A stretch of DNA of 64,000 bases from the NCBI GenBank assembly GCA_037576215.1, contig JBANDB010000009.1, positions 1,736,001-1,800,000 of the forward strand. The letters are read 5' to 3'. Shown here in pieces: positions 3,861-59,769 of this stretch (position 1 is its first letter; each line of letters starts with the position of its first letter). Under the pieces are notes generated by a model that searched no databases, was not told the origin of the DNA, and was given only the letters and a program-made list of their open reading frames with translations. Made by a program: the position numbers and the translations under genes. This DNA comes from Armillaria gallica (Eukaryota > Basidiomycota > Agaricomycetes > Agaricales > Physalacriaceae).

Positions 3861-3869
3861 GGGAAGCAC

Positions 3870-14765: not shown

Positions 14766-14845
14766 TAGGACGCGTGAAACCCTTCGACGCGTCGGTCATG
14801 GAGCAGTCAACGATCGAGGAAAGATCGGGGGGTATATAACCAGCT
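14766..14845 (+). promoter_or_regulatory. Gene A promoter block with TATA box
   Basis: TATATAA lies at 14833-14839, about 60 bp before the ATG. The surrounding sequence (CCCTTCGACGCG, then GTCAACGATCGAGG and AAGATCGG, then GGTATATAACCA) is nearly the same as the block in front of gene B at 57068-57130 on the other strand. Conservation outside the coding region suggests a shared promoter. Confidence 0.8.
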
Positions 14846-14894
14846 ATGAATCGGGAAATCCAACTTTCCTTCATCTTGAACCCATACCACCACC

Positions 14895-17368
14895 ATGTTA
14901 CTCAGCCTCACAGCTTTCATACTTAAAACCGTTATAGTTGCTTGGTTCTCAGCGTCGGTTAGCGACCTGTTACCCACCACCGACATCAGTTGGAGGTGGC
15001 TGGACACCGTCATGACTGACGTCGGATTACTTGAGCCCAATCCCACCTCGACGGAAATCAGCGATGTTTTCATCCAAGGCGTGGCCATCGTCGCCGATCC
15101 CAGTGCATCGCAGCCTATCCACCTGGTCACGGTCCTGACGGCGGATAGCCCAGCGAACGAAGCCGACGACATGGACGTCCACGCAGAAGATACTCCTCCC
15201 CAAGGTATCATCTGGCAGCTTCTCGAACCCACAGTCGCTGTCGTCAAAGTGACACCCGCAGCAACGACGCCCGTGGACGACGCGCTGACGCTGGTTTCTG
15301 TCCATCCTCAACCGACGCGGTTTCCTGCCAGTCTCAGCCGAGTCGGCTCTCGCCTTTGGTCGTCTTCCTTCGTTGGTTCAATTGCACCGGTATCGCTCTT
15401 CACCACCGTCCTCGCCGTCTTGGTAGGCGTTGCTATAGGTTTCTTCGCCCGGAGTGTTTCCGTTTCCGCCGGCTGGGACAATCTCCCCACTCTCGTCGTC
15501 GAAGTTTGCGGCCCCTCTGAAACGGTCACATCCTGTGTCATCGATTCCCTCGTCTCAAGCACGGTGGAAGCGGATTCGGAAGGCCAAACTAGACAGGGCG
15601 AGGTAGTCTTGGACGATATCCCAGTATCTGAACAAGCGGAGCATGGCGGAAACCTCGAGGTGAGTTTCGTATATTATTTTGCAGACCATATTTCCTCATT
15701 GTTCTAGCTGCAGGCAACGGACAATACGGCATCAATCCCGTCCGGAGACATTCCATTCAGCGGTGCCGTTCGGCCCTTGAGGACGTCCGTCGGCGTTCAA
15801 TCTACGTCGGAGGTACGCGAGGTTAAGGTGATTATGGCTATTTGAAGCCTTTGATGCAGCAACTAACATCGCGTATCTCAAAGGACGCTTCCGTATCATG
15901 TGAGCCGGTCTCAAGGACGTCTGTTGGGATCCAGTGTTCATTGGCGATTGATGAAGAAACGGTCAGGATGCCCATGCACACCTTTGGTGCAGCGACTGAC
16001 ATTGCGCGTCTCATAGGACAAATTCGTTCCTAGCGAGAGTCGGGGTAGTCTTTATGCCACAGCCACGGAGGGAAATTCACCATCGCAGGTGATGGACAAT
16101 TCAGACGTCTTTTCGGTCCCAACAGTTAACAGCCAATTCGTAAGTGCACCACAGAATACATCTATGGCGGTCACTGAGCTGCGTGTTTTCAGAATATATA
16201 CACGATGGCTGAGACAATTTCGTTCCCGTCGGTTGACGATCTGGCGAACGTAACCGAGTTCGAGCGGTTGCGTCAAGACGTCCGAGGATTTGGTTATGAA
16301 TCAGAGGTCCATGGGGTAAGTTTTTTGAACTTCTTTCGGGGATGAGTATACTAACGTGCTACGACTTACAGAGCATGGCACCATCCCTGCCTGCGACGGA
16401 GCTAGGAGTATCGCCCTCGACCTCGACCCCGGCTTCGCCAAGACCAGTTAGGGCCAAACCCCTCGAATATTTCCGTGAGTGTTGGGGGGCGGATACCAAA
16501 GTGAGTGCCGATACGAAGCACGTCTATATTCACGAATGCTTACCATTCAATTTCTAGCATGTGTGGGCGCGTGAATTTTGGTATCGTATGCTGAGGAGGA
16601 ACTCATCAAGGTTGTGTATGACACCATGTTTCCCCTTGACGAGGCTGCTACCGACGAGGACAAGTACGAGATGGAGCTGGGCGAAGGACTAGTGAGCCTT
16701 GTCAATTACTTTCTGTGGTGTCCCTGCTGACAGTGAATGTTGTGTAGGTACGCATATCTGCATTGCGTCTGTCGGAGCACGCGACGAATCCCATCCTGCG
16801 GCTTCCGTATAACGCTCCTTCAGAGGATGCTGACCACAAGGATTCCTTATTCATGTCGACGGAGGCCAATCCTACCATCCAGACGGGAGTGTCTTCGGCA
16901 GCCTCAATTGGCGTTCGCTCCCCTCCTCCGTTCGTGCGCCCATCAAACCCCCAGTCACGGTTCTTGGAATCGTCTTCCGAGGCATCGGTGGCCGCGCCTA
17001 CTATCCGCAAGGGTCTCGCTTCGCCATCGAAGACCCCGGCCGCTTGCAGGAGAAGGCCAGCATTGGCCCAGATCAACAATACTCCCCGCGGTGTCCTAAC
17101 CACGCCATCTCGGACCCCGGTGAAGGCTGGACGAGCTCAAGGAGTTCTGACCGGTGTCCCCACACCGCCTCCCTCTGTGCGACCAAAGCTGGCTAAACAT
17201 GGGAGTCGTTTCCCTCTCATCGCGCCGACAACGCGCCTCAAGGATGAAAGCGACTCCCCTACCCGTCCAGCACGCCGTTCTGTGAGTCTTCATTTCACTG
17301 CTGTATTTTCGCACTTCTGATTTTGTTCTCAGCCTCCTCCTTCCAAGTTCCCTCGATGGAGAGGCTAA
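14895..17368 (+). CDS. Gene A: membrane protein with basic Ser/Pro tail, unrecognised family
   Basis: Exon 1 (14895-15659, 255 codons) starts with a hydrophobic segment, LLSLTAFILKTVIVAWFSA, then a long polar region. A second hydrophobic segment (FTTVLAVLVGVAIGFFA) lies near residues 175-192. About eight small exons follow, all joined by short introns. Exon 2 is 15714-15812, exon 3 is 15884-15961 and exon 4 starts at 16017. Later pieces include FPSVDDLANVTEFERLRQDV, PLEYFRECWGADTK and ELIKVVYDTMFPLDEAATDE. The last large exon (from about 16748) is disordered and basic, with TIRKGLASPSKTP, TPSRTPVKAGRAQGV, GSRFPLIAPTTRLKDESDSP and PARRS. A final exon adds PPPSKFPRWRG and a stop at 17366-17368. 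Most junctions keep frame, so the gene appears intact; the exon 5 junctions are less certain. The tail matches gene B closely. The basic S/P repeats resemble phosphorylatable or nucleic-acid/microtubule-binding tails, but function is unknown. Confidence 0.75.
15779..16019 (+). repeat. Tandem exon-intron duplication inside gene A
   Basis: Two copies of about 107 bp (15779-15886 and 15914-16019) each hold the 3' part of a small exon and the following intron. The exon part AGGACGTCCGTCGGCGTTCA matches AGGACGTCTGTTGGGATCCA. The intron end CCTTTGATGCAGCAACTAAC matches CCTTTGGTGCAGCGACTGAC and continues to a similar acceptor and GAC. The encoded repeats are RTSVGVQS and RTSVGIQC. Confidence 0.8.
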
Positions 17369-17429
17369 ATCGATACTTTAGTGAACGCACGGAGATGACG
17401 AGGATGTCGGTCACACACACCTACTACGT

Positions 17430-18400
17430 CGCCGCGTTGGGACCCAAGGGACGATCGGCGGTGCATTGGAGCCGACGGGCTCTGGTGCATGCGGCTGGTC
17501 ATTGGGGGAGGACTGGTTCGCTGACGAGCTTGCCGGTCCTTCCTCTATCCCTGGTAGATGAGGAACATTGGAGACGGTGGTGGTCGACGGGCCATCACCG
17601 TTCTCTGATGGACCTCGGAGGGACCGTTGACTTCCGACGGGTAGTCGACGAGTTCTGTTCCCCTATACCCTTTCCCTTCGCGTGCACGACAGACTATTAC
17701 ATCCTTCGACATCCTCGTTGTCTCCAGCGTCTCCTCGGTTTTCAGTTTCGCATCGTCATCATCGGTATTGGTTCACGGTTAGGACATCCGCGCGGCATAG
17801 CTCTCGGTCGACATTCGATCCTCCCCAGCCTATATCATTATTCTTATTTATTGCATTTCTACCCCGTATACCCTTTTCTCTTCTGTCTTCTGTCTTCTGT
17901 CTTTCTTTTTCCTCCACCATATCACAGCCTATACCTCGTCAATTTGCATATTTCTCCCTCGAGGTTAGCCTACCATCATCACATTCCTATACATATATTT
18001 CTTCGGGATTTTCTTGTCTTCTCTCTTCGGTCCTCTCGGTCTTTCCGATCTTCTCTTCCTCTCTTCCTTGAAACATATCACAGCCTGTACCTCGTCAATT
18101 TGCATATTTCTCCTTCGAGGTCAGCCTACCATCATCACATTCCTATACATATATTTCTTCGGGATTTTCTTGTCTTCTCTCTTCGGTCCTCTCGGTCTTT
18201 CCGATCTTATCTTCCTCTTTTCCTTGAAACATATCACAGCCTATACCTCGCCAACTTGCATATTTCTTCTTCGAGGTCAGCCTATCACTATGACATTCTT
18301 TATACCCATATTTCCTCGTGATCTTTGGATTTTCTTTTGGTCGTTATTTCGGGCTATTGCGAATATTATCTTTCTTTTTGTCCGCAATTGTGTGATAAGT
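17430..18400 (+). repeat. Family 3' flank, copy behind gene A
   Basis: Starting about 60 bp after the stop codon, roughly 1 kb matches the downstream region of gene B (54425-53690, minus strand) and in part that of relic C (5275-5990). It includes GCCGCGTTGGGA, GACGGGCCATCACCGTTCTC and the ATCCTTCGACATCCTCGTTG block. A pyrimidine-rich tail then ends with GCGAATATTATCTTTCTTTT near 18360-18380. Open frames across it are pyrimidine-rich artefacts. Confidence 0.8.
17918..18390 (+). repeat. 156-bp tandem repeat, three copies (last partial)
   Basis: Copies begin at 17918, 18074 and 18230 with CATATCACAGCCTRTACCTC and are spaced exactly 156 bp. The first two are nearly identical; the third diverges after about 90 bp. 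Gene B's flank has only one copy of this unit. Confidence 0.9.
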
Positions 18401-18765
18401 TCAAACGCGTTCGGATTTCATCCAAGACTAACTTCAAGTTTGAGCATTTCGGCATTTGTTCAAGTCATTTAGTACATTCCTTCAACCTTGTTGAACTGCG
18501 GCTCCGTCGTCATCCTTAGCAACATCAGCTGCCGAAGGATAAGCACGGCTCGCACAGCACCGAAAGCATGTTCGACACTCGTACAGTTCGCACAGAGTCG
18601 GAGACAGATATGGAACGAATTGAGAGTGCAGAATCCACTGGCGGCGCAGTTTGAGACACCAACCCACTGCCACGTTGAGAATCTTTTGAAAACGAAATGT
18701 GTAGTAGCGATAGGCAGTACAAGAATGGCAAACCATTACAGCAGTGAGTATACAGCAACGCAAGA

Positions 18766-19059
18766 TCATTGGCAGAAAGCAACAACACAATAGATAGTGA
18801 TGAATATCACGAAAGCAGATGATAGCAACGATCTGGAGAGAGGGAACAAAGTAAAAGAAGAAGACTTGGACTGCATTAGCAGAACGGGTATGGCAATCCA
18901 TTTCACCATCCTCTCAAGCCCACGCACTGACACCCAAGCCTCTGATTGCTGGAGAGCAGCTTCTGCTTGACGGCGACCTTTAGCCTCAAGACGAGCATCT
19001 TCATGAAGTATGTACATTATCTTGTCAAGAAAACTGCTAGGCTCTGCCAGTGATTCCAC
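18766..19059 (-). CDS. Possible tail-anchored small protein or 3' exon
   Basis: The frame reads SFLDKIMYILHEDARLEAKG and RRQAEAALQQSEAW, an amphipathic helix. It then ends in a hydrophobic segment, SSAFVIFITIYCVVAFC, just before the stop. That is the layout of a tail-anchored membrane protein. There is no ATG at the beginning; the frame opens after TCATAG, so this is probably a last exon whose upstream exons I could not identify. No family is recognised. Confidence 0.3.
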   Translation of the reverse strand: MESLAEPSSFLDKIMYILHEDARLEAKGRRQAEAALQQSEAWVSVRGLERMVKWIAIPVLLMQSKSSSFTLFPLSRSLLSSAFVIFITIYCVVAFCQ

Positions 19060-20337
19060 CCTATGATGAAGAGAGAAATTGATGGACGGCGTCTTCGCTA
19101 AAATTCAATTTTCAGTCGCGATTGGAGTCGAATGGAAGGTTATGTACGTTCTGCGCTTGGCGGCGCAATACAAACGCAAAGGGAAAAAACAAGTTCTCAA
19201 CGGATGACCGGACCGATCGTCCGACTTTTCTTTCACAATGATGATGTTCACATCTTCCTGCATCCCAGCTACGACTCGTTTACTGGCGATTACATCCTTT
19301 CTCACGATTATTCTTCCTGTAACGTTCAAATTATTCGGCCCCGCTGACGACCAAATTCGTACATATACTAGAATATATCTCTTGAATTCTCTTCACGTCG
19401 CACGACTCTTAGGCGTCTCAGTAGAACCTACGCCTGCGTTGATTGACGATCAATGATTCCTCGCCTATCTACGCTCGCCCTCGTGTGCGAACAGGAAGAA
19501 AGAAGACTGCCTACCCGTGTTGGGAGGCATCTCGTGGGTCCTATCTCCAGTATTAAAAAACTGAGTTTCTTCTCAATTTACCTCGAAGGCTATTACATGC
19601 TTGGTCGATAATGTGGCGCCAGACATAAGATACTATGACTCTGAGAGCAGGGCGTCCATCATGTTGCGGTGCCGCTATGATAAATTGTCTGCACCGGCGA
19701 GCTCTGTTCTACGCAGCTAGTCACTAGAGCAGGACTGTTTGACTGGCAGACAACTTGGAGCTGGTGTGTAGACTGGCAACATCGTTCCTCGGCTGAGCGG
19801 TCAACTGGACAGGCAGTTCAGCGTATACTGTTCTGCTTCTGTCATACTTCCTTCTCAAGCAAATCTATCTTGTTGGATTCTTGGTCGCCTCCTGTCTCTC
19901 CCCGTTTCTCGGTCACCTTCATCAATGCGTTACGTCGGTCATTCGCGCGTTTGTCGCTTCCACCCCCCAAAAACTCTTTCTCATTGTTTGCCTCTCTGAC
20001 TTTTTTCATCGTAACTACTTAACCTGCATATGTTTCTTCTCTTGATCGTCACTGAACAATCGTATTATAACCTGCATCCCGTCTCTTCGCTTTCAAACAC
20101 TTCATTTCATAATAGAAGACCGGCGCTGGCAATGCGTTCTCTTTCTCTTAACCTGATTCCAGTACTGTCGTTACGGTTGTACCTCTGGCAGTTGTGAATA
20201 TATCTGACATGTCGGCTTCTATCATTCTCTTAGTTTCCAGAAAGCTTAGCGCGATTGGGAGACTCTCGATGAGTTTGACGGTTTGAATTAGATATACAAG
20301 TTACACTGAATTTTCGATGTGCAGCGGTATTTACTAT
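19060..20337. other. Intergenic, no gene recognised
   Basis: Short open frames only. The part from about 19840 to 20130 is pyrimidine-rich on the plus strand. No repeat family or RNA gene was recognised. Confidence 0.4.
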
Positions 20338-21713
20338 CTATTTCTTCGGCATAGTGGCAGCATCCTTTTCTGCAGCCCTATTTACCTCCTTGTCGTGAAC
20401 AACGATTTCCTTCATCTCTTCTGCAAATTGCCTTGCGGATTCTTCGATCTCCTTGCTCAGTATTGTCATATCACTACCGGCTTCGACTGTAGCGATGCCG
20501 CTGTACCACATACGCTGCTGCGCAAGTCCTTGTTCGATCATCGCCTACACAAGGATTCAGGCTATATTGATCGCGGAGGAGAGATGTTCCGTACCTGGAC
20601 ACCGTTGATAACATGCCAACCGGTAGCTTCAGCGATTTGGAGCATGGGCGTCCGGCGTGGCTTGTACTAGCAGAATAATCGATCACCACGGACCAAAACT
20701 GCGAGGAGAAAACCTACTGGCATTTCCAGGAATATTCGTTTTATGGGTAAAGGAAGACCAGACTCGGCAGAAGGTTGTTTGTAAGGAATAGTCGACGCCG
20801 CCATGACAGTTGTATATACCATGCGTTCTGCGTAGGTGACAGGCGCGATGGCAGCTATGGAAACCGAGGGTGAGATTGGATTCTTTCTGGTAACAATGGC
20901 TGACATACGGATAGCACCAACAGCCATCAAGAGGGTGCAAGCGTCCGGGCCGACGAGGTACTTCTCTACATCATCCGGATTCTTGAGGTGAATCAACCCT
21001 CCCTTCTTAGAAAGATGGGGCATCGCTTCCATAACAACGCGCACTTCCTCTGGGTCCCGGTTAATCAAAAAAACTGGACTCAGTCCCAGTAAAGTAAGGG
21101 CATGTGCAGCAGATCGCGTCGTCGCTCCTCCTCCTATGACAAGACCAGCACCTTTGGCAGACGGTGAGAAGGATGACTGTGAAGAGAGCTCTTTCCCGGG
21201 ATGTTGATCACGAAGAGCGTTGAGCAACGCGTTTCGCACACCGAGGACTAAGAAAAGTGAGCCTTTATAGCGCTGTGGTCAGATAGGGACATACTGTCGG
21301 TATTCTGCCCGACGAACTTGAACCCGTTCTCAGTTCGGACCTTCACTATCGTGTTGCACGCGTCTGTAACCTGAGTCTCGGGTGATACTTCGTCTAGATA
21401 GGGTATAATAGCTGCCTTGTTGGGCATCGTTACTCTGTATTTCTTTCCAGATCAGAACTCGTTATATGGATAAAAAGTGCCCGACGTACGCGCATCCACC
21501 AAACTCGTCGCTCTTGATGAACTCCAGTACATCGTCTGTTATTTTTGACGTCGGCCACAGTTCGTATCTGTTGCCCGAATTCAAGGCGTCAAAGCAGGTA
21601 TTATGCAGACCGGGGGCAGACGAGTGAGCAATGGGATATCCGAATAGAGGGAATCTCTTGTTCTGGGGTGCAACTGGGGGGGCCATTGCGGAGACAGTAG
21701 CTGGGGTATGCAA
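20338..21713 (-). CDS. Quinate/shikimate dehydrogenase
   Basis: The N-terminal exon has FPLFGYPIAHSSAPGLHNTC, the substrate-binding S-x-S/P-x-x-H-N signature of shikimate dehydrogenases. Then come VTMPNKAAIIPYLDE (the catalytic-lysine loop), TDACNTIVKV, FVGQNTDSIGVRNALL, GLVIGGGATTRSAAHALTLL (nucleotide-binding GGGATTRS), LSPVFLINRDPEEV, and after a late intron RRTPMLQIAEATGWHVINGV and MIEQGLAQQRMW. This is the fungal QutB/catabolic type, acting on quinate or shikimate with NAD(P) to give 3-dehydroquinate or 3-dehydroshikimate. The C-terminus carries an extra acidic helical tail. ATG at 21713 is used; a second ATG ten codons later (MAPPVAP) could also be the start. It lies next to dioxygenase and dehydroquinase genes on the same strand. 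Confidence 0.9.
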
Positions 21714-22086
21714 TGCGGGGAACGTTTCATTTTATATGTCGGAGGAAAGTTTCTGCAGTCCAGGAGAGATTAGGAGACAAACGGGGAATCGGACCAAAAG
21801 CCGGGTTTGCCTTTCTTGGTCGTAGTTTAGACTCAGTTCATTTGTTCCTTTCTGCCGTGCGCAGGCGTATGTATACAACCAATCAAGTTAGCAATAGTTA
21901 ACACGTCTTCACAACTATTGAGCCAGTCACCCGGCAACGTCAAATCGACAACGAGCATATGTACGACACCCTTGGCACGAATCCCCAGTTTCTTCACAGC
22001 AGTCCACAGCTAATATATACCGTTACATTCGTTTGCACAACGCAATCTGTCCAGCTAGGCGGGCTACCGTCCACCTCGCAATAGTA

Positions 22087-23490
22087 TCAAGCCTCAGGTT
22101 TCGGCTTGATGAGGTCCTCCTCCCTGACAAGCACAAAGTCTCGCTCAAGTTCAAGGTGCGGCTTTTCTTCTTTGAAACCACGAGCGAGGGTAAGAGACGT
22201 GTCTGTGATCAGCTTCGGGTCCTGCAGATTGGTATTTTAGGTGTATATTCAATTCCGGTATAAATCAGACCCACCACTATGAGGGACTTCCTGACGGCAA
22301 ACGCACTGTCAACCTCCAAGTATTGATCACCCGTGAAGTACAGCTGAGTGATGAGTTCCTTGTAATTGGGTGCCTGTACAAGACATAATTTCAGCCATGA
22401 TGAGAATTACCGGACAATAGGACTTACGTTAATCTTGAAATGAAGATGTGCTGGTCTGTACTTCACAGAGCCAAGAGCATCAAGCAGATCTTCAGCAGGT
22501 CCACCCACATTGAAAGGGTAAGCCAATGGCCTATGTTACCGTCCGAGTCAGCAAGAGATAACTTAACGAAAAAGAACTGACTCTATGGCTCTGAATGCAA
22601 ATGAACCGTCCTCTTCGGTCGTGAAGCGTCCTCGGCAATCAGGTTTATCATTGTAGTCCGGATACTACGAGCTTCGTCAGCACACAATCTGTTTGCCATG
22701 ACAAGTAGGTCCTTACCTCCTTATCGTAAACCCCGTGTTTATCCGCCTCCCAAACATCCATCACCGCGCCAGCGATAGGGTTTCCTTGGACGTCCAAGAT
22801 ACGTCCGGACATATACAGGTAGTCACCTTTTCCTTCCGAGGCGATGGAATCGCCTTTCTTCACTATTGCAGAAAGTCAGCCGCGGTAATCCAGAAGCAGT
22901 CTAATTTCAAACCCACATATCTGAGTAGTCTCGGTATAGAGGGGACCCAAAATCGCTGGCTCCGTCGCGTTAGGAGGCTTGTCGTTGTTCACCAAATCAA
23001 CGAGGGCCGACACGCCAAAAATATCAGACATGATCATGATATCTACCCATGTGTGGGTTAGCAAATCACCTCCAACTCTCGCTGCTGAATACATGCTGCT
23101 CACATCGATCCTCTTGACGGAATCTGTCCAGAAAATCAATTGAGGCCCTGAAATAAATTCAGTATCGAATATTGCGTGGATGGTACAACATACTTCCACT
23201 CCTCATGAGTCAAAGACGTCTCTCGGACGAAATTGTGGACATGATCTATCTAAGTAGATATTCACGTCGGTTTTGTTATAAATAGTTGTCGAAGACACTA
23301 ACCAAGTGCTTGAAGAGGAACTTCATCCTTTCGTTAGGGCCTGTCCCGCGTCGTAAGGTTAGAAACGGCGCTCATACGGACTATAAGGAAACTCACAGTT
23401 GGAAAAACTGAGATGAACCATCTCTGTAATGGCTTGGACCTCGTCGAGCGAAGAGGTTTTCTCAGCAGTCTGCGCAGGGGTAACGATCAT
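22087..23490 (-). CDS. Intradiol ring-cleavage dioxygenase (hydroxyquinol/catechol 1,2-dioxygenase type)
   Basis: Exons carry, in order, MIVTPAQTAEKTSSLDEVQA (start at 23490), DIFGVSALVDLVNNDKPPNA, TEPAILGPLY, GDYLYMSGRILDVQGNPIAG, AVMDVWEADKHGVYD, CRGRFTTEEDGSFAFRA, PLAYPFNVGGPAEDLLDALG, KYRPAHLHFKI and LITQLYFTGDQYL. The end reads LVREEDLIKPKPEA before the stop at 22087-22089. The Fe(III) ligands of the family are visible: Tyr in GVYD, Tyr in PLAYPF and the two His in RPAHLHF. The enzyme opens catechol, or more likely hydroxyquinol, between the two hydroxyls, feeding the 3-oxoadipate route. Eight or so short introns interrupt it. Its place between quinate dehydrogenase and dehydroquinase suggests use in quinate-derived aromatic breakdown. 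Confidence 0.9.
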
Positions 23491-23949
23491 GGTTGTTTCG
23501 AGGCGAGGATAACAAGAACAGGCAGATAGCATTCATTTTAAAGGTCATCTGTTGCGCCGTGGCAACTAACTCAAAGATATTGGGGCGGTGCCTGTGCAGA
23601 GCGGCAAGGCAAGTAGCCGCACTAGAGCAGAAGACTTACTAAGTTTATACTGGGCAGCCGATAGTGCGTGAGTGAAATGGACAATTTTTAGCCCACATTG
23701 TACACGAACTGTCGGTAATAATATAACAACCATACCTAATTGGTGGAGAAGAAGCTTGCAGAACCACCCAACCACGCGATCAGAACAGATGATTGGCATC
23801 TCGACTCTGGAGCCGGGTATAGTGGACGTCCAAGCTGTCCATCCTCAAATCCTGCTTGCATAGTCGATGAATAAGATGACTGGTTTCGAGGATGAATGAA
23901 TGTACATTGTAATCAGCATTAGTTTATATCTTCCTACCGTACTTCTACT

Positions 23950-24519
23950 TTATTTCTTCTCCGTTTTACCGAACTTCGGGCTCGTGGCGACGAAATCAAT
24001 AGCGTACTCTGAGAATATTATTAGTGCTAGGATGGAAGGGGAACCGAAGGTATACCATATCCCTTAACGCCAAAGCCGACAATAATGGCTTCCGCCTTGT
24101 CCGAAAAGTATGAATGATGCCTGAACGGTTCTCGCGAATGCACGTTCGTTACGTGGAGTTCAATAAATGGTATTGAAACGCCAAGGAGCGCGTCGCGGAC
24201 CACCACCGATGTATGAGTAAGACCACCTTGGAACGAATCAGACTACTAGGATATAATACAAAGAACTGGCTGACGACCCACCTGGATTGATGATGATCCC
24301 ATCAACACCCTCATCTCTTGCCTGGTGGATCCTATCCACAATAGCGCCCTCGTGATTGCTCTGGAAATCGTAGAGTGTCGCGTCGTGTTTGTCCGCTATG
24401 GCCTTCGTATTCAACACCACATCGGCAAGGGTGTCGAACCCATAGATATGAGGCTCACGGGTGCCCAAAAGGTTGAGGTTGGGCCCGTTGATGAGCAGAA
24501 TGGTGCGGCTTGACGACAT
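23950..24519 (-). CDS. Catabolic type II 3-dehydroquinate dehydratase
   Basis: The start [20 protein letters not shown] contains the type II signature [12 protein letters not shown]. Further markers are [11 protein letters not shown] (catalytic Tyr), [18 protein letters not shown] (S-N-H-E-G), GIIINPGG, and after one intron [35 protein letters not shown] and GFGVKGYAYAIDFV. All catalytic residues (the first-loop Arg, Tyr, the two His) are present. It converts 3-dehydroquinate to 3-dehydroshikimate reversibly. In fungi, type II enzymes serve quinate use, because the biosynthetic activity sits in the AROM protein. This fits its position beside quinate dehydrogenase. The stop is at 23950-23952. 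Confidence 0.93.
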
Positions 24520-24834
24520 GGGGGTTCCTGTACCGCTTTCCCCATCTATGTATGGAGAAGGGTGGGGAAATAAGAACGTGGGAAACGGCTTCTACTTCGG
24601 CATCGGACCTCCGTGTGACGATCGGAGACCAAATATCGGATTTGATTTAATCCTTCAATCGGACCGGTGGAGAGAATTTGTTCCGAACTAATTCCGGAAG
24701 TTTTCCTCTCTCCCGATCCATGGTAATCCCATGGGCACCCAAGTCCTGGGCCATTAAAAATAACAGGTAAAGATGACTTCGACGTTAATAACCATTTCTA
24801 AAGAATTTTAGCGCCAGTTTGATTTCTCTAGAAT

Positions 24835-41030: not shown

Positions 41031-41033
41031 TTC

Positions 41034-49800: not shown

Positions 49801-49808
49801 CATGCTAG

Positions 49809-50876: not shown

Positions 50877-51113
50877 TACCGGTCTGTACTTCTGAAGCTC
50901 TAGAGATGACCAAAATTAAAACGATTCCCAGCTAGGCCTTTCACGAATGCCCTCTGTCGTGCCGGAGGAGCGTCGATACCAAATGTGATTTTAACTACAA
51001 GAACAGACAATTCTGATGGCGACAACAGTGTCATCATTTGCAGCAATACTAGTACAATTTTAATCGGACATAACAACTAGTTCATACACCCAACAAGCTT
51101 ACGTTTCTGCGAA

Positions 51114-52977
51114 TCACTGATCTACCGTCATCTGGTCAGTATTCCAAACCCATGGATCCTCAAACGGCTTTTCTTCAAATTTGAGCGAGATCTTCCATGG
51201 GATCGGGAAGCCTTCCACTGGTTTTCCATTTTCGTCATAAATCTCCCAGATTGCCATAGTACCGGACCCATCATTTGCTCCATGCCGCAGCCCATAGGTC
51301 CCGGGCTTAAGAGCGCTCTTGTGTACTGCATTGATTGGGTTGAATGGAAGTGCGGGGGGCTGATCAGTCATGTCGCTCTGATTGGAGAAGGTGTACGCAA
51401 TGTGACTCAATACGACGTAGTCGTCGGTTGGCCCAAATCCGCGCCAAATCCTCGTGTAGGTCATACCGCCGGAGTAGGGGAAGTCAACAAAATCTCTGTA
51501 TGTTTCCCACCGCGTGACGGGTACAAGGACACCGGGGACGAGAGCTTTAACGGGCACACCGTCGGGCCAATCAATGATCAGGTTCTGGGAGACAGTGAAT
51601 TGCTGTGAAAGACCAACATATCCATCACCGACTGTGACCGTCGTACCAGAGTCAAAGACGCGACATTTATCCATGAGATTTTGACTTACCTCCGTAGCTA
51701 AATGTGTAAAATATAACAGGATCCGGCTTACCTTCACGGTAATCCGTTGTGATGAAAGACGCAACACGCGGGTTCGACTTTGCAAAGCGTGCACGAAGAT
51801 AAGGGCCAGGAATCATTAAGCTGGTAGAATAGTTTTTGCAGTACGTCGCGTACGCTTCCTTTAATTCATCCTGACGCGCCTTTGTCGAGGCGAGTTGGTA
51901 CAGAGCAGTGAACGCAGGGGTACCCCCGAATTCGACGAAGCTAATGTGTGAAGTTAGAGCGTCAAATGAAAACAACACGGAAGCAAAGAACTCACGCAGG
52001 ATAGTCTTTCACAGAGTCGGCCCAGGCGTCGATGTTATTGAGGAAGTTCTGGTTGCCGTACTTGGAATCGCCACCCTCAGTGAGCACTCTATAAGTACTA
52101 GACTCCTGGAAGCTGTTGATGGTATCTTGATATTTAAGCTGCTCCGAGGCAGACAAACTGCCCATGAAAAACTTGACAGAAACCTGCGCAGCAATTTCGA
52201 TGGATTCGTCGGCGCTGTATTGTGTCGTATCGGTAGTACAAGTGAAAGCAGCGCGTCCACCGATGATCAGATTGCTGACAAGGTGAGTTCCATATTGTGC
52301 GTAGATTAGCTCCGGATCAGCGTTGTCCAGTATGTTCACGAAAGCAGGGCGGAGATACATTTGCAGCTCGAGTGGCGGAGGAAGGGACATCGTATAGAGT
52401 GTGACCTCATGCATGACTCGGGTGAATGCGTTGGCCATGTTATTCGTTTCACTCTGGCTGAAATCGACAGAGACGGACCCGCTAAAAAATGGCCACTCGG
52501 TTCCGAGCTTTTTGACGCATTGTCAGTATCATGCAATGCAGAATGCAGAACTAGGCTTTACCTCAGTGCGGCTGGACAATGCACGCGAGTAGTCATCTGC
52601 AGACTTTCCAAAGGTCGAATTGAATTCGGTCCTGCTGACAGGATGATAGTTCACCATGTCAGGAACGCCCCAAACCTTGTCACCAAATGTAACATCGTGG
52701 AAGGGTACTGCGGATATTGGTCAATGTTGCACACATAGCAGCTAGTGTGAATTTTACAGTTGGACCAATCGACAACGACTTGCATGCTGATACAAGTAGA
52801 TTAACGAGTGTCGTCAACATCTAGCGCGATATCCTACCAGGATCGTGCGTCTGCATAGAGGCCATTCAGCACGTTATATGTCGCCCCAAGAGACGGCAGA
52901 GAGGGAATAGCATTAGCCGGTATGTCTCGTGGGTCCATAGTGAACCGTGGTAAGGATGATTTAAGATTTGTCGACAT
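51114..52977 (-). CDS. MACPF-domain protein with Vps62-like C-terminus
   Basis: Starting at 52977 and reading leftward, several exons separated by short introns encode a MACPF/perforin-like region. The family signature Y-G-T-H followed seven residues later by G-G lies at about 52305-52260. The segment after it is rich in alternating polar residues, as in the membrane-inserting helices of the fold. After an intron near 51990 and another near 51690, the C-terminal third (51650-51114) has the Y-V-G-L-S, W-P-D-G-V-P-V and I-W-R-G-F/P-x-x-x-Y-V-x-L-S motifs of Vps62/DUF946-type beta domains. No signal peptide is visible. Proteins of this build assemble into membrane pores or act as regulatory pore-fold proteins. 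Whether this one is active, and on which membranes, cannot be told. No aegerolysin partner gene is found in the window. Confidence 0.8.
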
Positions 52978-53690
52978 TTTTTGAGCTGCGCAGGGGGGGT
53001 GAGGTAGGGGATGTAGTATGCGCCTTTGACGAGTGGAAGTTACTGCTATTACTTATAGTCCGCACGACGCTCTTTCTGCCAGACCAACACGAGGATAATT
53101 TCTTTCAATAGTACGCATTCTACACCTCGGTGAAGCGACAGCTATCATGGTCAGTTGCCAGACCCCATGAAGTCCAAAGGCACCTGCTTTCAATTGTACG
53201 AATACTTTACCTCTGTAAAGCGGCTGCTATCATGGTCAGCTATGGTCAGCTGCTCGAACGATGAGAAGGGACCAACGTAAAGGATGCGTTCTATTACTCA
53301 CATACAGATTGGCTCGGAGCCCCAGTCCACCGGAAGAAGCTCTAACCAGAGTCTGAGAGCAAAACGCAGTTGTGTGCTCGATGACGGGGATGTAGAGAGT
53401 AGTTCGACACTTCAACGCTCTGCCCGTATTACTGCATTCGTGTGGGATGGACAATAGACATTAATCTTGAATGGTACTTAGGGTAATGTGACAGCTATCA
53501 TGGTCAGCTGCCAGACCCCAAGAACTGCAAGTCGGACACTGTCTTTCAATAGTACGAGTACTTCATTTCGGTGAAGTGACAGCTATCATAGTCAGCTGCT
53601 CGAACGATGAGAAGGGACCAACGTGAAGGATGCGTTCTATTACTCGCATTATAACCCAACGGTGAATTATGCTAGGGCCGTGAAAATTTG
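52978..53690. repeat. Direct repeats of about 165 bp upstream of MACPF gene
   Basis: Sequence from about 53139 (GACAGCTATCATGGTCAGTT, GCCAGACCCCATGAAG... to GAAGGGACCAACGTAAAGGA, TGCGTTCTATTACTC) recurs from about 53490 with small changes. A third partial copy starts near 53095 (TTTCTTTCAATAGTACG). Each full copy contains two CAGCTATCATGGTCAGCT-type palindromic words. No coding frame is conserved between copies. Confidence 0.75.
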
Positions 53691-54430
53691 AATCGGTCTT
53701 GAAAACATTCAACTTAGCAGACGAAGTTCAGGACAAAAAAGAAAGATAATATTCCCAAGAACCCTAGTTAAAGACCAAAAGAAATTCCAGAGATGCGGCA
53801 TGCAGAACAGATATGGGTATAGGAATATGATGATGATAGGCTGACCTCGAAGGAGAAATATGCAAGTAGGCGAGGTATAGGCTGTGATATGCACGGGAAA
53901 AAGAAAGAGAGAAGACCGAAAAGACGAAAAAGGCCCAAGAGAAAAGGGTATACGGGGTAGAAAGTGATAAATAGGAATAATGTTATAGGCTGGACGGGGA
54001 TAGAATGATAGGCTGAGAGAGGATAAAATGTCGACGGAGAGATATGCACGTCATGAATAAAGATGAGCACAGGCGCGGTGGTCCGGGTCGAGAAGCCAAT
54101 GACGAGTAACGAGACAGAAAACCGAGGAGACGCAGAAGACGACAAGGGTGTCGAAGGATGTGATAGTCTGTTGTGCATGCGAAGGGATTTACGGCACAGA
54201 CCCGTCAACTACCCGTCGGCAGTCGACGGTCCCTCCGAGGTCCCTCAGAGAACGGTGATGGCCCGTCGACCACCCCCGTCTGCAAGGTTCCTCATCTGCC
54301 AGGGATAGAGGAAGGACCGGTAAGCTCGTCAGCGAACCAGTCCTTCCTCAATGACCAGCCGCATGCACTAGAACCCGTCGGCCCCGATGCACCGCTGATC
54401 GACCCTCAGATCCTAACGCGGCAACGGAGT
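53690..54430 (-). repeat. Family 3' flank, copy behind gene B
   Basis: Read on the minus strand this matches the gene A flank at 17430-18400 from GCCGCGTTAGGATCTGAGGG through the ATCCTTCGACACCCTTGTCG block and the CATATCACAGCCTATACCTC unit to GGGAATATTATCTTTC. It has only one copy of the 156-bp unit that is in three copies behind gene A. Confidence 0.8.
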
Positions 54431-54503
54431 AGTTTGTTTAGTGGACATCCTTGTCGTCTCCGTGCGCTATTTGGCTTTTCTTTCTGGTCGGTTTATCAAT
54501 CAA

Positions 54504-57021
54504 TTAGACTATGAACAACCAAGCTGAGAATTATGTTAGTACCATGAAAGATACAATGGAATGAATGAAGGCCTACACCCTGACAACGCCGTGCTCGACT
54601 TGCAGGAGAGCCGCTTTCTTCCTCCGGGCGCGTTCTCGGCGCCCGCACTGGGAAACGGCTGGGAGTGTGGTGTTTCGGCTGGGACGACCGCGAGGAGGTA
54701 CACTCCAGCCGTCTTGGTTGTCCAGTTCGGACCGGCGAAGGCACACCCTTCCTAATAGGAAGGGCAGCTGCACGAGCCGGTGTTCGGAATGAACCGTCCT
54801 CTACGGAGTGACCTGAGGATGTCGAGCGCAAAACAGGGTTTGACGGTCGTGGAGGAAAGGTGCGAACCATGCCCTACAGAGCATTAAATGTCAGTAGGCA
54901 ATTCTCAATACTCAACAGACAATGCTCACCTCTGCGTGATGTCCCAATCGGCGCGGAGATAGACTTTTCTCCTTCTGCTTCTGCGTTTTCAACGCAGGAG
55001 GAGAAGAACGAAGGCTCTTGGGGTGTACAGACGGGGAGGGTTGGACCGAGGTTTTGATTCGAGGCGCGCGCTTGCCAGGACAGACAGGGTTGCGCAAAGG
55101 AGACGGACGGGCAGTCACAGGTGTGTGCCCTTCCTGAAGAGGGTGAACAAGTGAAGCCTTCCTTCGCCGAGACGCTATGGGAATGGGGGAAGGCGACGAC
55201 GCGGGGGCGACAGCAGTCTGTGACTGGGCGTCATCGTCAACAACCGCCTGCTCAGATGAGGAGCCCGAGGTAGCTAAACAGGGAACGGGATCAAAGGAAT
55301 AGGACGCCGAAGCGTGCATTAAGGACATGTTCTATGTGGCATTGAACGTCAATTACGCGATTCAATATAATCAAAAGATCGCACTCACCCCGTCTTCAAC
55401 AACCTCGGCATCGACCGCTTGCTGCAAGGCGTAAAAGCCATCAATGCGGACAGGAACGTAGGTCTCCGGTAGTGAGAGTAAGTAGTTCCCAGTCTCAGAG
55501 TGCTGAAAATATGGCAATGAGTAATCATGCCTATCGGGACGTTCTGTATTGCTCACCCCGCTTGAGAAGAGACTAGGTTGAGGACCTTCCAACTCTACCG
55601 TGCCTTGCCTAACAACTGTCCCAGTGCGTGCCAGCGAAGCCACATCCAAGTCGGAAATGGCGGGCCGAATACCTAGTGCAGACATGCGAGTCACCTGTAC
55701 GACATGAACAATCAGGAGGTGTATCCAAATAATATGTCGACCGTGCTCACCTCGGCCTGGCTATCGTTGACCGAGTCTTCCGCGAGTATGGTCCTAGAAA
55801 CTGCTTGAGACACTCCCTCAATGACGCTTTCTTCTCCATCATTGTTTACAGATGAGAAGAAGGCCATAGAGGCGAAGGCCCGTAAGTTCTGAAAACACAA
55901 AACTTATGATGAACGGTTATACGCAAATTCCGTGTGGCACTTACATCAAGGCTTTCCGATAAGCTGACTGTAGAGGGTGTAGAACCCGTGGCGCCATGGT
56001 TGAAAACCACGTCCTCGACTGCCAACGATATTTCCTACGAATATGTTGGATGAGCTTGGGCATCAAAGGCGCAATTGACTATGCTTACCGTTTCCCAACA
56101 GATATACAACTTCGATTCGATGGATTTCCTGATGATAGTCTGAAGACGTTCGTTTCCATACGCGACATTGTCGGATGCCGTATCGCTTGTCAACTGAAGG
56201 CAAACTTCTGAGAAACCGAAAGCTAGAAAACGGTATATGGGACTCACCTGACGATCCAAACCCGGTGATGAATCTGCGCCTTGCTCTTCTTGATTTGTCG
56301 TGGGCACGTTCGCCTCTGAGACCTCGTCCTGAAACAGCAGTCTCCACACAAGGGAAACTACTCCTACGACTTCTTCGACCGCGGCTTCTTCACGCATGGC
56401 GCGGAAGAGTAGGAGGAGGAAGTCGAGGACAGTAGGAGGGACGCCAGAATCGAGATTAAGGAGGACCGGGACGCTCATGGCTACCGCTAATCCCAGGAAG
56501 ACAAGGATGACCAGCTTGTCGAAGAAGCGATCCCAAGGATTTGAGCGAGCGACGAGAAAAGGTGTTTGTCGTGGTGCAAAGGCGATGGAAGTGCCAGATG
56601 GCAGAGGTGTCTGTCTGATAGCAGTTACCATTCCTAGGGTCGATGCGACTCGCACGACCTTGGGAACGGTTTTGACGCTGGGCGAGGTACCGACGACCGA
56701 CAGCGCAGTCGATGTGAACGATACCGGCTCAACGGAAGATTGGATTTCCTTCGGGCCTGGGGCGACGGTCTCCACGATAGTGTCAACCGTGTCTGTGACC
56801 ACCCAGGCCAGAGTGTCGTCCAGAACTTCGGACTTCAAGGCAACGTCGATGGTGTCGATATGAGCAACGACACCAAAGGCGAGGGCATCTTCCTGGAAGG
56901 AAGGCCCTTCCAACCACAGGCTGCTCAGGCTGATGGCAGAGTTGGGCCGGAACGCATTGAAAACCGCGGTGATGAAGAGGGAGACGAGAGTAGCGAAAGG
57001 GATACCCAAACAGTAGACCAT
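54504..57021 (-). CDS. Gene B: paralogue of gene A
   Basis: Exon 1 (57021-56248, 258 codons, phase-0 end) begins with MVYCLGIPFATLVSLFITAV, a hydrophobic helix. It has a polar middle (VVTDTVDTIVETVAPGPKEI) and a second hydrophobic block, KLVILVFLGLAVAMSVPVLL, then VLDFLLLLFRAM. Small exons follow: VCLQLTSDTASDNVAYGNER, NLRAFASMAFFSSVNNDGEE and RMSALGIRPAISDLDVASLA, then HSETGNYLLSLPETYVPVRI. The large basic disordered part has GHTPVTARPSPLRNPVCPGK, LPIRKGVPSPVRTG, then SRFPVRAPRTRPEEESGSPA with RARRS. The last exon ends WLFIV and a stop at 54504-54506. The tail aligns with gene A (SRFPLIAPTTRLKDESDSP...ARRS). Most junctions hold frame, so the gene looks intact. Function is unknown; the membrane helices plus a phosphorylatable basic tail suggest a membrane-bound scaffold, by inference only. 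Confidence 0.73.
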
Positions 57022-57067
57022 GGTGATGGTCCTTGGTAATGATGTAATAGGTTGGATTCCTCGATCC

Positions 57068-57130
57068 GTGGTTGGTTATATACCCACCGATCTTCCCTCG
57101 ATCGTTGACCGGTGCGTGACTGGCGCGTCG
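57068..57130 (-). promoter_or_regulatory. Gene B promoter block with TATA box
   Basis: On the minus strand: CCTTCGACGCGCCAGTCACG, CACCGGTCAACGATCGAGGG, AAGATCGGTGGGTATATAAC. The TATA box (57082-57076) is about 60 bp before the ATG. It matches the gene A block at 14766-14845 nearly base for base. Confidence 0.8.
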
Positions 57131-58378
57131 AAGGTGAACACGCGTCCTATAGAGCAGAATAGCAATACGACATAGAGCGGGTAGTTGGATCTGAACACTT
57201 GAAAGATAGACACGCGCTGAACATGTAATTGGGACGACTCAAAAATGACGACGTTACGCTTCACGCTTGAAGCCCGGCCGGCCCAGACATGTTAGGGTCG
57301 ATATACTCGGTTAGCGCGTTCGCTTGTCTATGGTGGACAATGAACTAGATGAATCGTAGGACGCGACAACAATCAAAACTAATGTCCTTGTCAACGCTGT
57401 GGTGTCGACAGTCCACAAGCCTCTTCGAAGATATGTCGCCCCAAGTCGAAGAAAGATACGGCCACATCTTCTCCGTATGCAGATGGCCTTTCTAGGTTAT
57501 TGGTATCCTTTCGCACTATAGCAAGAGACCACGAGACTGAATGTCCAGGCCCACCAAGATAGTTCCGACGTGTCTGCAAGCTTATCCAGGCGTGACACAG
57601 ATACAGCATGGAAAAGGAGCACTGTAGAGACGTCCGAGAGCCTGAATACTACCAATGCAGGGAACAACGGGCCATTAGCAAAAGCATTGGTACACATGCC
57701 TTGACGCTCACCGGTCACCTTCCGAGTGGCTTCCGTATGTTTACCATCTACATTGTTCTTTCTATGCCTGCAGATATTCCAAAACTTTACGATGGAACGA
57801 TCTGTAGATGCGGTATACGACTCGGAGTTAGACGTTCAGTAAGCGTCAAATCGGAGGTACACAGAGTTTGCCTGTGATGTACGTTAGTTCCAAAAATTCA
57901 CAGTCAAGGCTACATAGAAATACTCACAACATTCATCAATAACCAACCGGTTTGATAAAGCGTTACAGAAACGACTGGAGAGTACTAGTACCAAACTAGT
58001 ACACACTGTCCACACTGTAGGTCGTAGTAGCAGTAGTAGTAGTAGTAGTAGAAGTCGCACTGGCAAGCGGTCCCTAAAATCAGTAACAAATTCTTGGGCA
58101 TTTCTGAGTTTGAAATCTACCCAAATATAGATTTTCCCTGGACTTTTAGTCAGCAAAGACTTCTTCACGGCGCACGCTCACGTTGGCAGGCTGGAAGTGC
58201 GCTAAAGCTCTCAAGGACAATCTTAATGGTCACTCTACAAATAAATTTCTTTCTGACATGCGATTTTGGCTGCAGAAAGATGTCTAAAGGTCTTGTCGAT
58301 CTACGTCTACCACCTTGCTACTTCTAGGCGCGCTCGTCATTTATCTGGCTCGATGACATGTCCGAATCAAGCTGCCAG

Positions 58379-58385
58379 TATATAT
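58379..58385 (+). promoter_or_regulatory. Gene D TATA box
   Basis: TATATAT lies about 60 bp before the ATG at 58439, the same spacing as in genes A and B. The leader CCATCTTGACTTCTCACCAC followed by CACCATG resembles gene A's TCATCTTGAACCCATACCAC followed by CACCATG. Confidence 0.6.
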
Positions 58386-58438
58386 CGAGATATACGAAAC
58401 CAAACAAACTCGTTCCATCTTGACTTCTCACCACCACC

Positions 58439-59769
58439 ATGAGTTTCCTTGCCACGGCGATAACAATGTTCTTCAATCCTGTGGACGCAATCTTAGGGTC
58501 GCCAGAATTGGATTGGCCGGAAACCGTCTTCGATGCCCTGCTTGCATCAACAAGACCTCCCCCGTTGTTCCTTACTCGAGCGAATCTCACCATTGTCCCC
58601 ATAGGAGCTTTCATATGTTTGCTCGTCACCCCCATGGTCCCTTCTGCTCATATGATATCGAGACTTGGGCGGACCTGTTTTTCTCTTGCCTACTCGCCCT
58701 TCGTCGCTACTCGCCTATTCATCAAACACGCCGATCCCTTCACGGTCTGCCTCGCCACCCTCCTTTTTGGAATGTCCCTGGGTTGTACGCTGGACTTCCT
58801 GTTTGCGTTAATCAACACGAACCACATCGTCCTATGCTCCACATTTGATATTCTATCTCCCGCCTTGCTCTCATATATCAAGCCTTACTGTAGCATAAGA
58901 GTTGTGATCTTTCTCGCCCTCTTCTCTATTGGACTGTACCTTCAGCGAAGCAAGCAGACCAATCCTGTCGAAAAGAACAAGGGCGATGTCCCTTCGGAAC
59001 GCATTCCTGCAAGCGATGGTGATGCTGGCGCGGCTTCCAACGTCGAGGTGACGTCATGTTTGCAGTCTACCATTGGAACTCATGCACATTTCCCTCCTCA
59101 GAAGACCTTGCCGGCCGTCACTCTGCCATTTCCGACCAAAAGTGAGGCTATTTCACAACGCACAAATCCCGATTGTGAAGATGTAGAGGTTAGAACCATT
59201 ACTTTACTGCTTTCCGGGATCTACTGATCATACGTCACCACTAAGGCGTCATTTCTGACTTTCCTATTGCCTCATCTTCAATCCGTCCTTATCACTGGGC
59301 CCGTCGTTCTCTCATCATACACAACCGACGTGGCACAGGTCTTCCACGATGAGATCGTGGATACTGGCTCTCTGGGTGAACATGCTGAGGCAAGCGCGAC
59401 ACAACAATAGCTCGCAATCTATTGAACGATCTTGTCTAGAAATCTATCGTGCCAAGCTGTCGTCGATGCCTGTCTGGTCATCGACAAGCCACCGATCACT
59501 CCGAACACATTGCGACTAATATCGAACAGTCCCAGGATGATCACCTAGTTGAAACTTCACCTACGCCATCAGGTTCGCCATCGTTTCTCGAGCTTACAGA
59601 CTCGCCTTCCCTGGTCACCGGCTCCGAGAAAGCTCACACTGCTACTGCAACCAAGAGTCCTGTGTTTCTGGGCCATTGCGTATGAGGATGCATATTAGAC
59701 AGGACTCTCACGATTGAGAACAGAGGCTCCAGTATCAATCGACATCCTCAGACTTCGCGCAAGACGTAG
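58439..59769 (+). CDS. Gene D: probable divergent member of the gene A/B family
   Basis: Exon 1 (58439-59188) is 250 codons and ends at a phase-0 donor, like A (255) and B (258). It starts MSFLATAITMFFNPVDAILG and has hydrophobic segments LTIVPIGAFICLLVTPMV, VCLATLLFGMSLGCTLDFLF and IRVVIFLALFSIGLYL, then a polar stretch with KNKGDVPSERIPASDGDAGA. Small exons follow (SFLTFLLPHLQSVLITGPVV; VFHDEIVDTGSLGEHAE; IVPSCRRCLSGHRQATDHSE to SPSFLELTDSPSLVTGSEKA). The last piece, RGSSINRHPQTSRKT, depends on an uncertain acceptor (ATTGAG), so the 3' end is provisional. Protein similarity to A and B is weak; the link rests on exon size, promoter spacing and leader. No known domain is recognised. Confidence 0.55.

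Follow-up and report, generated by a model that had tools for sequence, protein, structure and literature searches.

Behind the genes of a clustered family of putative membrane proteins in Armillaria, fungi known for very large clones, lies a conserved non-coding element of about 230 bases that is predicted to fold, in the sense strand, into four hairpins. Judging from their common exon phases, tail motifs and flanking DNA, genes A and B and relic C of the 64-kb stretch of DNA analysed here (the window) are members of this unnamed multi-copy family. We favour, at a probability of roughly 0.6, the reading that the element is a shared 3′ untranslated region (UTR) element giving the family's transcripts a common post-transcriptional control while leaving the coding part freer to diverge; a single RNA handle may thus serve to control copies whose proteins differ widely. 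If this holds, the cluster would provide an example, from a basidiomycete, of a fast-diverging gene family whose copies have a conserved, structured 3′ RNA in common, and a ready test of whether cells handle all the transcripts of such a family through multivalent loop–loop or loop–protein contacts. The cluster is also of note in itself, as a recombining group of orphan membrane-protein genes in Armillaria.

Family copies arise through local duplication and swap parts, and most of them bear a common upstream block and a common structured RNA after the stop codon. In the proposed working, this RNA of four mostly GACG-tipped hairpins would sit in the 3′ UTR of the mature mRNA and act in cis, where multivalent contact between the hairpins and a putative binding partner would set the placement, stability or translation of the family transcripts. 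The earlier note on this DNA had recognised a gene family, and missed both the structured 3′ element and the cluster members outside the window.

The gene cluster and its members

Searches of the 86-Mb genome scored the best candidates only and thus give minimum counts: no fewer than 12 A-type and 3 B-type loci lie inside 0.51 Mb of contig C9, one further family fragment lies on contig C5, and the genome total is at least 15 family loci. Three members (A, B and C) fall within the window, where four copies within 56 kb had been counted by including gene D. The picture of a duplicating, partly decaying multi-copy family with no known domain is borne out by the copy search and by a Pfam scan in which no scanned family sequence scored above the cut-off. 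'Undescribed', as the family had been called, is apt in the sense that its named relatives are titled only hypothetical, uncharacterized, transmembrane or membrane-associated protein. Every named relative found in the protein database searches, one of which scored just 7996 candidates with the most common words, is from Armillaria. The coding frame reads open in B and in three A-type copies (c1513, c1519 and c1704) and is broken in A, A2, c1540, c1675 and B2.

The tail pattern proposed for A and B (SRFP..AP.TR...ES.SP...ARR and IRKG..SP) was found in exon 8 of both genes. A search within the window matched the tails at 41% over 83 residues (E about 1e-4), and because the corresponding DNA match (74% over 872 bases, E 3e-153) continues from the tail into the 3′ region, chance low complexity is ruled out as the source of the likeness. 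The 5′ flanks of A and B are 73% identical over 172 bases in the DNA comparison, and 150 bases of flank are 83–96% identical among the five A-type copies compared. Exon 1 of B alone has no detectable relation to an A-type profile (probability 0.8%, profile comparison); B is placed in the family by its flanks, its tail, the phases of its exons and the 3′ element. A second B-type copy, B2 at C9:1836761, has a first exon 75% identical to that of B. Relic C lies before the start given for the family in the earlier note, although the 56-kb span named there implies it. Assigned to the family by ordered DNA pieces only, it does align with B at the second hydrophobic segment, with matches running in order through the 5′ flank, exon 1, that stretch, an internal exon and the 3′ region.

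The first exons of A and B have the positions, lengths and phase-0 GT donors previously ascribed to them (Table 1). The nine-exon, all-phase-0 plan of A keeps its GT/AG borders in all eight aligned copies and matches A. gallica gene models; A. gallica P0010 and copy c1519 have the same length (732 amino acids) and are 91% identical over it. Exon 7 of A carries a frame-breaking length difference against all seven aligned paralogues. Exons 2 and 3 of A are alike, forming an internal repeat. Gene D has the 250-codon first exon that had been claimed; its membership of the family is not supported, since at E 0.01 its DNA matches none of A, B and C, and its hhalign probability against the A-type profile, which is shallow (Neff 2.0), is 0.1%. 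D divergently adjoins B. The genome search found no relatives of D other than pieces of one broken copy, D2, which adjoins B2.

Table 1. Features of the window (positions counted from its first base)
Feature	Position	Strand	Remarks
Relic C, decayed B-like copy	3605..5682	+	pieces from the 5′ flank (about 3605-3821), exon 1 (3891-4357), an internal exon (4546-4753) and the 3′ region (5272-5682)
Element copy of relic C	5272..5500	+	fold lost (z 0.0); 71-76% identity to the nine copies set against it
Gene A, conserved 5′ flank	14727..14894	+	TATA-like GGGTATATAACC; common to B (57022-57189) and C
Gene A, exon 1	14895..15659	+	255 codons, phase 0 donor; relatives P0001-P0009
Gene A, exons 2-6	15714-15827, 15884-15961, 16017-16139, 16193-16315, 16372-16500	+	all phase 0; splice sites kept in 8/8 aligned copies
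Gene A, exon 7	16558..16691	+	frame lost; compared with 7/7 aligned paralogues
Gene A, exon 8	16748..17281	+	basic Ser/Pro tail
Gene A, exon 9 with stop	17333..17368	+	ends PPPSKFPRWRG; near-identical end in A. gallica P0010
Structured RNA element after gene A	17421..17655	+	four hairpins with GACG tetraloops (predicted); tips CCGACGGG/TCGACGGG at 17472, 17584, 17634; CTGACGAG in second hairpin
Second conserved 3′ block of A	17893..18298	+	156-base tandem unit
Second conserved 3′ block of B	53800..53902	-	single
Structured RNA element after gene B	54198..54432	-	90% identical to that of A over 233 bases; z -6.5
Gene B, exons	57021-56248, 56193-56089, 56034-55945, 55888-55751, 55694-55557, 55502-55389, 55331-54930, 54873-about 54580	-	first exon 258 codons, GT donor phase 0; last end uncertain, without a clear last donor
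Gene D (separate membrane-protein gene, family membership not supported), exon 1	58439..59188	+	

Divergent proteins that exchange parts

The family, which has to date been met in Armillaria alone, encodes membrane-anchored and probably mostly disordered proteins. For these we infer an N-terminus resembling a signal, an amphipathic helix beside one or two transmembrane helices, and a long Ser/Pro-rich basic tail. In exon 1 of A, an N-terminal hydrophobic segment is followed by a region that would lie outside and then by a transmembrane segment. Structure prediction from a 32-row alignment of the family yielded no folded ectodomain (mean pLDDT 34.7). DUF6535 (PF20153), likewise a protein family of unknown function whose members have hydrophobic segments, was considered for copy c1519 and rejected at 12 bits against a cut-off of 23.9 bits (E 0.19).

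The fast divergence attributed to the family is real for the first exon between types, but copies also swap parts and have a conserved non-coding 3′ element in common. The N-terminal part is the most divergent between types, A and c1704 sharing 35% amino acid identity over the first 150 codons with dN 0.63. Positive selection via dN > dS is unsupported, as dN lies below dS in 48 of the 49 values computed; only the last part of exon 1, between A and A2, goes the other way (0.040 versus 0.037). A comparison of 16 database proteins with 4 copies from this genome showed that A2 and c1704 share 94% of the tail domain and are 39% identical over the first 150 codons, and that A. ostoyae P0016 joins an MFPC-type first exon to a tail domain closest to MLLS-type genes. 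Copies thus do exchange parts.

Such proteins might form a surface or endomembrane family for self/non-self recognition, act as selfish killers of the wtf kind, or serve as ordinary wall or stress sensors with a disordered outer part. We consider these roles unlikely: the N-terminal divergence between types, the clustering, the pseudogenes and the lack of relatives seen beyond Armillaria speak for them, but dN below dS in all but one of the values, the low pLDDT, the Pfam scan and the location of the cluster speak against. A position at a pheromone-receptor locus was rejected, since the 19 genome matches to STE3 pheromone receptors (PF02076), which we take to be MAT-B, lie on C1, C2 and C5 and none on C9.

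VSG genes of trypanosomes have common conserved 3′ ends in a multi-copy variable family. By description only, the Armillaria genes likewise join variable coding sequence to a common conserved 3′ end, but the family has no known switching or single-copy expression. Genes of the wtf family encode membrane proteins and include many pseudogenes. As spore killers of Schizosaccharomyces they too are a multi-copy fungal gene family (PMC5478263); the likeness is again one of description, the Armillaria family differs in having no Pfam match above the cut-off, and drive would here be hypothetical.

A conserved non-coding element past the stop codon

The element begins about 50 bases past the stop codon in A and is 86–91% identical between B and A-type copies, unlike the first exon of B, which no longer aligns with A-type ones. 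DNA matches to it occur at 13 places in 86 Mb, all within C9:1.326–1.893 Mb, unlike a dispersed retroelement, a comparison confined to the DNA of the element as distinct from retroelement genes. Judged by position, 12 of these places have a family gene or its relic immediately upstream; at the thirteenth (c1892) there is no recognisable family gene within 2.45 kb. A coding explanation is rejected by variability that is even across codon positions (0.074, 0.080 and 0.078) and by stops that, even in the frame with the fewest interruptions, occur in 5 of 10 copies, including the open genes c1704 and c1519. The A. solidipes gene model P0014 reads into the element region in one frame, which is stopped in 5 of 10 copies here, two of them open A-type genes. 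At the Rfam gathering score the element has no match and the whole window yields only a tRNA; by E-value, two sub-threshold hits (E 2.2 and 3.8) lie beside the element on the minus strand at 17721–17766.

Conservation might also stem from exchange itself, the element being a DNA-level homology island for gene conversion with an incidental fold. Copies do exchange parts, as in A2/c1704 and A. ostoyae P0016; however, conservation has an abrupt edge (between B and A, 0.90 in 17421–17653 and 0.68 over the next 137 bases), and conversion alone does not predict a fold that is far stronger on the sense strand, is rich in G-U and poor in C-A cells, and shows some double changes, which makes this account very unlikely.

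Predicted fold, strand and loop tips

Against 200 shuffles, the element folds at z −7.2 in A, −6.5 in B, −4.7 in c1892 and −7.5 in c1328. With 100 shuffles, 11 of 12 copies gave z −4.5 to −9.4 in the sense versus −1.1 to −5.0 in the antisense direction, the antisense of B2 also folding well (z −5.0). Among 150-base segments over 14500–18649, z fell below −2.7 only in two at 17400–17649, on the sense strand. The consensus energy of 11 copies is −112 sense and −51 antisense, and sense consensus cells comprise 172 G-U versus 11 C-A. The 12-row RNA alignment leaves out c1693, whose element is partial, and relic C is excluded from the RNA model, the main consensus-cell tallies and the tip comparison; model hits on the source sequences are by construction, those on c1693 (L040), relic C and a remnant at L037 being the only independent ones.

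In a shuffle test that leaves in the kinship of related, non-independent copies, applied to a structure derived from the same sequences, the 12 rows held 13 double-changed cells, where shuffles gave 4.7 and none of 500 reached 13, and 9 double-changed pairs, where shuffles gave 3.7 (1 of 500 as high), confined to 9 of the 84 pairs, while the number of pair types was not above shuffles (46 versus 44.2; 115 of 500 as high). Covariation of the element's pairs, as read from this alignment, is modest. In copies with open genes, fewer pairs are broken than simulated random substitutions predict (counts this low in a fraction of 0.016–0.046 of simulations): such substitutions would break 3.3 pairs in c1513, 4.1 in c1519, 3.7 in c1704 and 7.2 in B, where 0, 1, 1 and 3 are broken.

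Broken-frame copies (A, A2, c1540, c1675 and B2) still fold well, and the element therefore does not simply die with the protein. This might point to an independent, trans-acting non-coding RNA gene behind the family genes, for which coding-dead copies would still be useful. Frame-broken A keeps all 84 pairs (0 broken versus 2.9 expected), and z is −5.5 to −8.3 for the folds of A2, c1540 and c1675, in line with such a gene. In these last three, however, pairs survive no better than under random substitution (fractions 0.40, 0.27 and 0.27, respectively), the fold of relic C is lost, and the third hairpin of gene-less c1892 is hit by a deletion. We give this reading little credence.

GACG tips the first to fourth hairpins in 12, 9, 10 and 10 of 12 copies, respectively. 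The 286 kb of DNA examined contain 103 tetraloop hairpins of at least 9 bp, and the 18 with GACG all lie in element copies, which are mutually related. Tips are changed in 4 of 176 cells versus 41 of 547 other unpaired cells, an extra conservation that is suggestive only, random column sets being as low in 8–10% of draws. Duplicated-gene clusters are typical small-RNA targets, and several GU-containing stems of about 10–23 pairs in a row, near-identical across many copies, could be a precursor for Dicer-type cutting, small RNAs of one copy silencing or tuning others. Yet the tips are nearly constant too, if not significantly so against random column sets, and equal GACG tips are not known to be required for dicing; a small-RNA precursor seems to us distinctly improbable.

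With its almost uniform tips, the row of hairpins is similar to a motif of RNA contact in retroviruses. The GACG tetraloop is reported in retroviral packaging and dimerisation signals, as in SL-C and SL-D of MuLV (PMC516450, PMC5874298), a pair of neighbouring GACG-capped stem-loops likewise placed in a non-coding part of the sense RNA; the element has the two or more neighbouring GACG-capped hairpins that characterise such a signal. It differs in belonging to fungal nuclear genes, past the stop codon, with four hairpins and in this cluster only, and the likeness is likely convergent. By analogy, the hairpins could be a cellular counterpart of the kissing signal, in which the C-G of a tip would pair with tips of sister transcripts in a hypothetical loop–loop contact and mRNAs of different copies would assemble to be moved, translated or silenced together; we rate this too as rather improbable. 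Candidate structured RNAs of fungi, reported as 15 motifs (PMC5640933) and 17 RNAs (PMC8216456, a set drawn from Ascomycota genomes), are likewise structured and conserved and some are UTR-linked; a word search of the main text of both papers returned neither GACG nor Armillaria.

In the predicted fold the fourth hairpin competes with a closing stem. Farther downstream, the second conserved 3′ block of A holds two full copies of its 156-base unit, which are 92% alike, together with a third copy for which the match covers 94 bases.

Gene structure and divergence of an Armillaria gene cluster

The earlier note's proposal of a multi-copy family of membrane proteins describes something real, but its centre lies elsewhere than was proposed: the gene cluster is an Armillaria orphan, and what its copies have in common is an RNA fold at the 3′ side no less than a protein. 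In gene A, all nine exons are joined in phase 0, and the internal GT/AG borders are present in all eight aligned copies. Under the same exon model the copy c1519 encodes 732 residues, exactly as many as A. gallica P0010, a protein that was annotated independently.

Coordinates of gene A, the 3′ elements and other features (window positions unless a contig is named)
Feature	Position	Remark
Gene A exon 1	14895-15659	
Gene A exon 2	15714-15827	
Gene A exon 3	15884-15961	
Gene A exon 4	16017-16139	
Gene A exon 5	16193-16315	
Gene A exon 6	16372-16500	
Gene A exon 7	16558-16691	
Gene A exon 8	16748-17281	
Gene A exon 9	17333-17368	
A element	17421-17655 (+)	
B element	54198-54432 (-)	
D2	C9:1834154-1834865	divergent pair with B2, same layout as D/B
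B2	C9:1836761-1837495	divergent pair with D2
C5 fragment	C5:502745-502915	57 residues, 84% identical to B exon 1
Exon-like open frames	51114-52522 (-)	two, adjoining B
MACPF/perforin frame	51992-52522 (-)	E 3.5e-10
Direct repeats	53093-53649	49-66 bases, downstream of B
tRNA match	6946-7067 (+)	122 bases

Searching the 86-Mb assembly (28 contigs; window at C9:1736001-1800000) with exon 1 of A gave 22 matches, which group into at least 12 loci within the 1.328-1.752 Mb interval of C9, and exon 1 of B recovered B, B2 (75%, 1.837 Mb), relic C and one fragment on C5, by these searches the sole family piece off C9. The multi-copy claim stands for these loci and is not supported for D, the fourth candidate. 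Eight A-type copies could be aligned from end to end: c1513, c1519 and c1704 read open over their whole length, a stop interrupts exon 1 of A2, and A, c1540, c1675 and c1693 carry frame breaks. B reads open as far as the end of its last exon, which is uncertain, and B2 changes frame in the seventh. Exons 2 and 3 of gene A resemble each other, and in A. novae-zelandiae P0020 a comparable unit, some 25 residues long, is repeated further.

Nearly all values (48 of 49) gave dN below dS. Divergence between types is greatest in the first exon, and that of B yielded no alignment to the A-type profile. Identity between A and c1704 is 35% over codons 1-150, 52% over what is left of exon 1, 72% in exons 2-6 and 85% in exon 8. 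A2 and c1704 are 94% identical in the tail domain and 39% identical in codons 1-150, a disparity in sequence indicating that family copies swap parts. Introns (15660-17332 in gene A) differ less from copy to copy than synonymous sites do (for A and c1704, JC 0.15 against dS 0.59 in exons 2-6).

Every named protein relative is from Armillaria, a few matches carrying no name; by section, c1519 is 90-97% identical to A. gallica P0010 and c1513 91-100% to P0011, which suggests that the window derives from an Armillaria near A. gallica. Two first-exon types, MFPC... and MLLS/MLFV..., occur in this genome and also in A. solidipes, A. ostoyae and A. novae-zelandiae, where the former type reads MFPY in A. 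novae-zelandiae. The earlier note recognised no known domain, and a Pfam scan of five sequences (whole c1519, exon 1 of each of A, B and D, and A exon 8) likewise gave no match above the cut-off. AlphaFold2 (32 sequences) gave low-confidence models (mean pLDDT 34.7) in which the N-terminus and the membrane segments are helical, as are an amphipathic stretch and part of the tail (~497-560).

A conserved structured element 3′ of the genes

Downstream of the stop codon, a 233-base stretch of B is 86-91% identical to eight A-type copies (90% to A), and over the next 137 bases A/B identity falls to 68%. In the distant copy c1328, exons 5, 7 and 8 match at only 30-57% and the 233 bases at 88-92% against the eight other non-relic copies. 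Codon positions within the element are equally variable, and its most open frame contains stops in 5 of 10 copies. A DNA search placed the element at no fewer than 13 genome positions, all within this cluster; by coordinates 12 of 13 lie 3′ of a family gene or its relic, and the thirteenth, c1892, has no recognizable family gene in the preceding 2.45 kb. The truncated copies c1564 and c1711 gave no match in this whole-genome search, and c1662 retains an element remnant only. A second 3′ block is 88% identical between A and B (17820-17990); in A it is a tandem array of a 156-base unit (17893-18298), which B has once (53800-53902).

The predicted RNAs of the A and B elements fold at -133 and -128 kcal/mol (z -7.2 and -6.5). 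With 100 shuffles per copy, 11 of 12 copies reached z -4.5 to -9.4 in sense and -1.1 to -5.0 in antisense (-5.0 being B2); relic C gave +0.5 and +0.2. Across 14500-18649, 150-base sliding windows reached z -4.5 and -6.5 over the element alone, on the sense strand (antisense, -0.9 and -2.7). The 11-copy consensus comprises 84 pairs at an energy of -112 kcal/mol (antisense, -51), and its 172 G-U cells against 11 C-A cells indicate the sense strand.

We rate the fold energy as strong and the covariation as modest, because the controls leave relatedness in and the tested structure derives from the same sequences. In the 12-row alignment 96.2% of cells pair (95.1 in shuffles), falling to 35-50% when partners are shifted by 1-3 columns; both-side changes affect 9 pairs, where shuffles average 3.7, as well as 13 cells, where they average 4.7. 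Pair types, at 46 against 44.2, are not above shuffles.

Possible selection on the RNA, and its GACG tips

Broken pairs were compared with random substitutions matched in number and transition share, a test biased towards structure because the structure derives from the same sequences, a bias that does not touch the energy z-scores. Fewer pairs than expected are broken in the open copies c1513, c1519, c1704 and B, with 0, 1, 1 and 3 (expected 3.3, 4.1, 3.7 and 7.2), in c1328, with 2 (5.5), and in the frame-broken A and B2, with 0 and 4 (2.9 and 9.7). A2, c1540 and c1675 do not differ from random (4, 1 and 3 against 5.0, 2.3 and 4.5); c1892, with 5 broken pairs where 8.3 were expected (fraction 0.08), and relic C, with 14 where 19.3 were expected (fraction 0.06), are intermediate. 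This pattern partly fits an element that is of use alongside its gene; A and B2 depart from it, perhaps because their frames broke recently or because their RNA still serves a purpose. We favour, at a probability of roughly 0.6, an element that would lie in the 3′ UTR and act in cis; small-RNA production, a trans-acting RNA and an island of DNA homology each seem less probable.

A GACG tetraloop caps the four predicted hairpins, H1 in all 12 copies, H2 in 9, and H3 and H4 in 10 each; H4 could alternatively join the closure of the whole fold. Across 286 kb, 18 of 103 tetraloop hairpins with at least 9 pairs carry GACG, all 18 in element copies. The window contains 11 instances of YCGACGGG where 3.5 are expected, six of them in the A and B elements. 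Tips changed in 4 of 176 cells against 41 of 547 at other unpaired columns, a low rate equalled by 8-10% of random column sets. The papers found on GACG tetraloops are, by their titles, nearly all retroviral; two reviews describe such tips in packaging and dimerization of gamma- and other retroviral RNAs, with loop-loop contact in SL-C/SL-D (PMC516450, PMC5874298). The likeness to the element's tips may serve as a lead and carries no claim of membership.

D and other neighbours

The earlier note had counted D as a divergent member, which is not supported, DNA and profile comparison detecting no similarity to the family. D2, a broken relative of D, adjoins B2 as D adjoins B; this recurrence of the same divergent pair suggests that the two were probably duplicated together, and D looks like a neighbour copied along with B rather than a family member. 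Two exon-like open frames also adjoin B, one bearing a MACPF/perforin domain, and local direct repeats lie downstream of B. Elsewhere in the window, the length of a tRNA match makes an intron probable.
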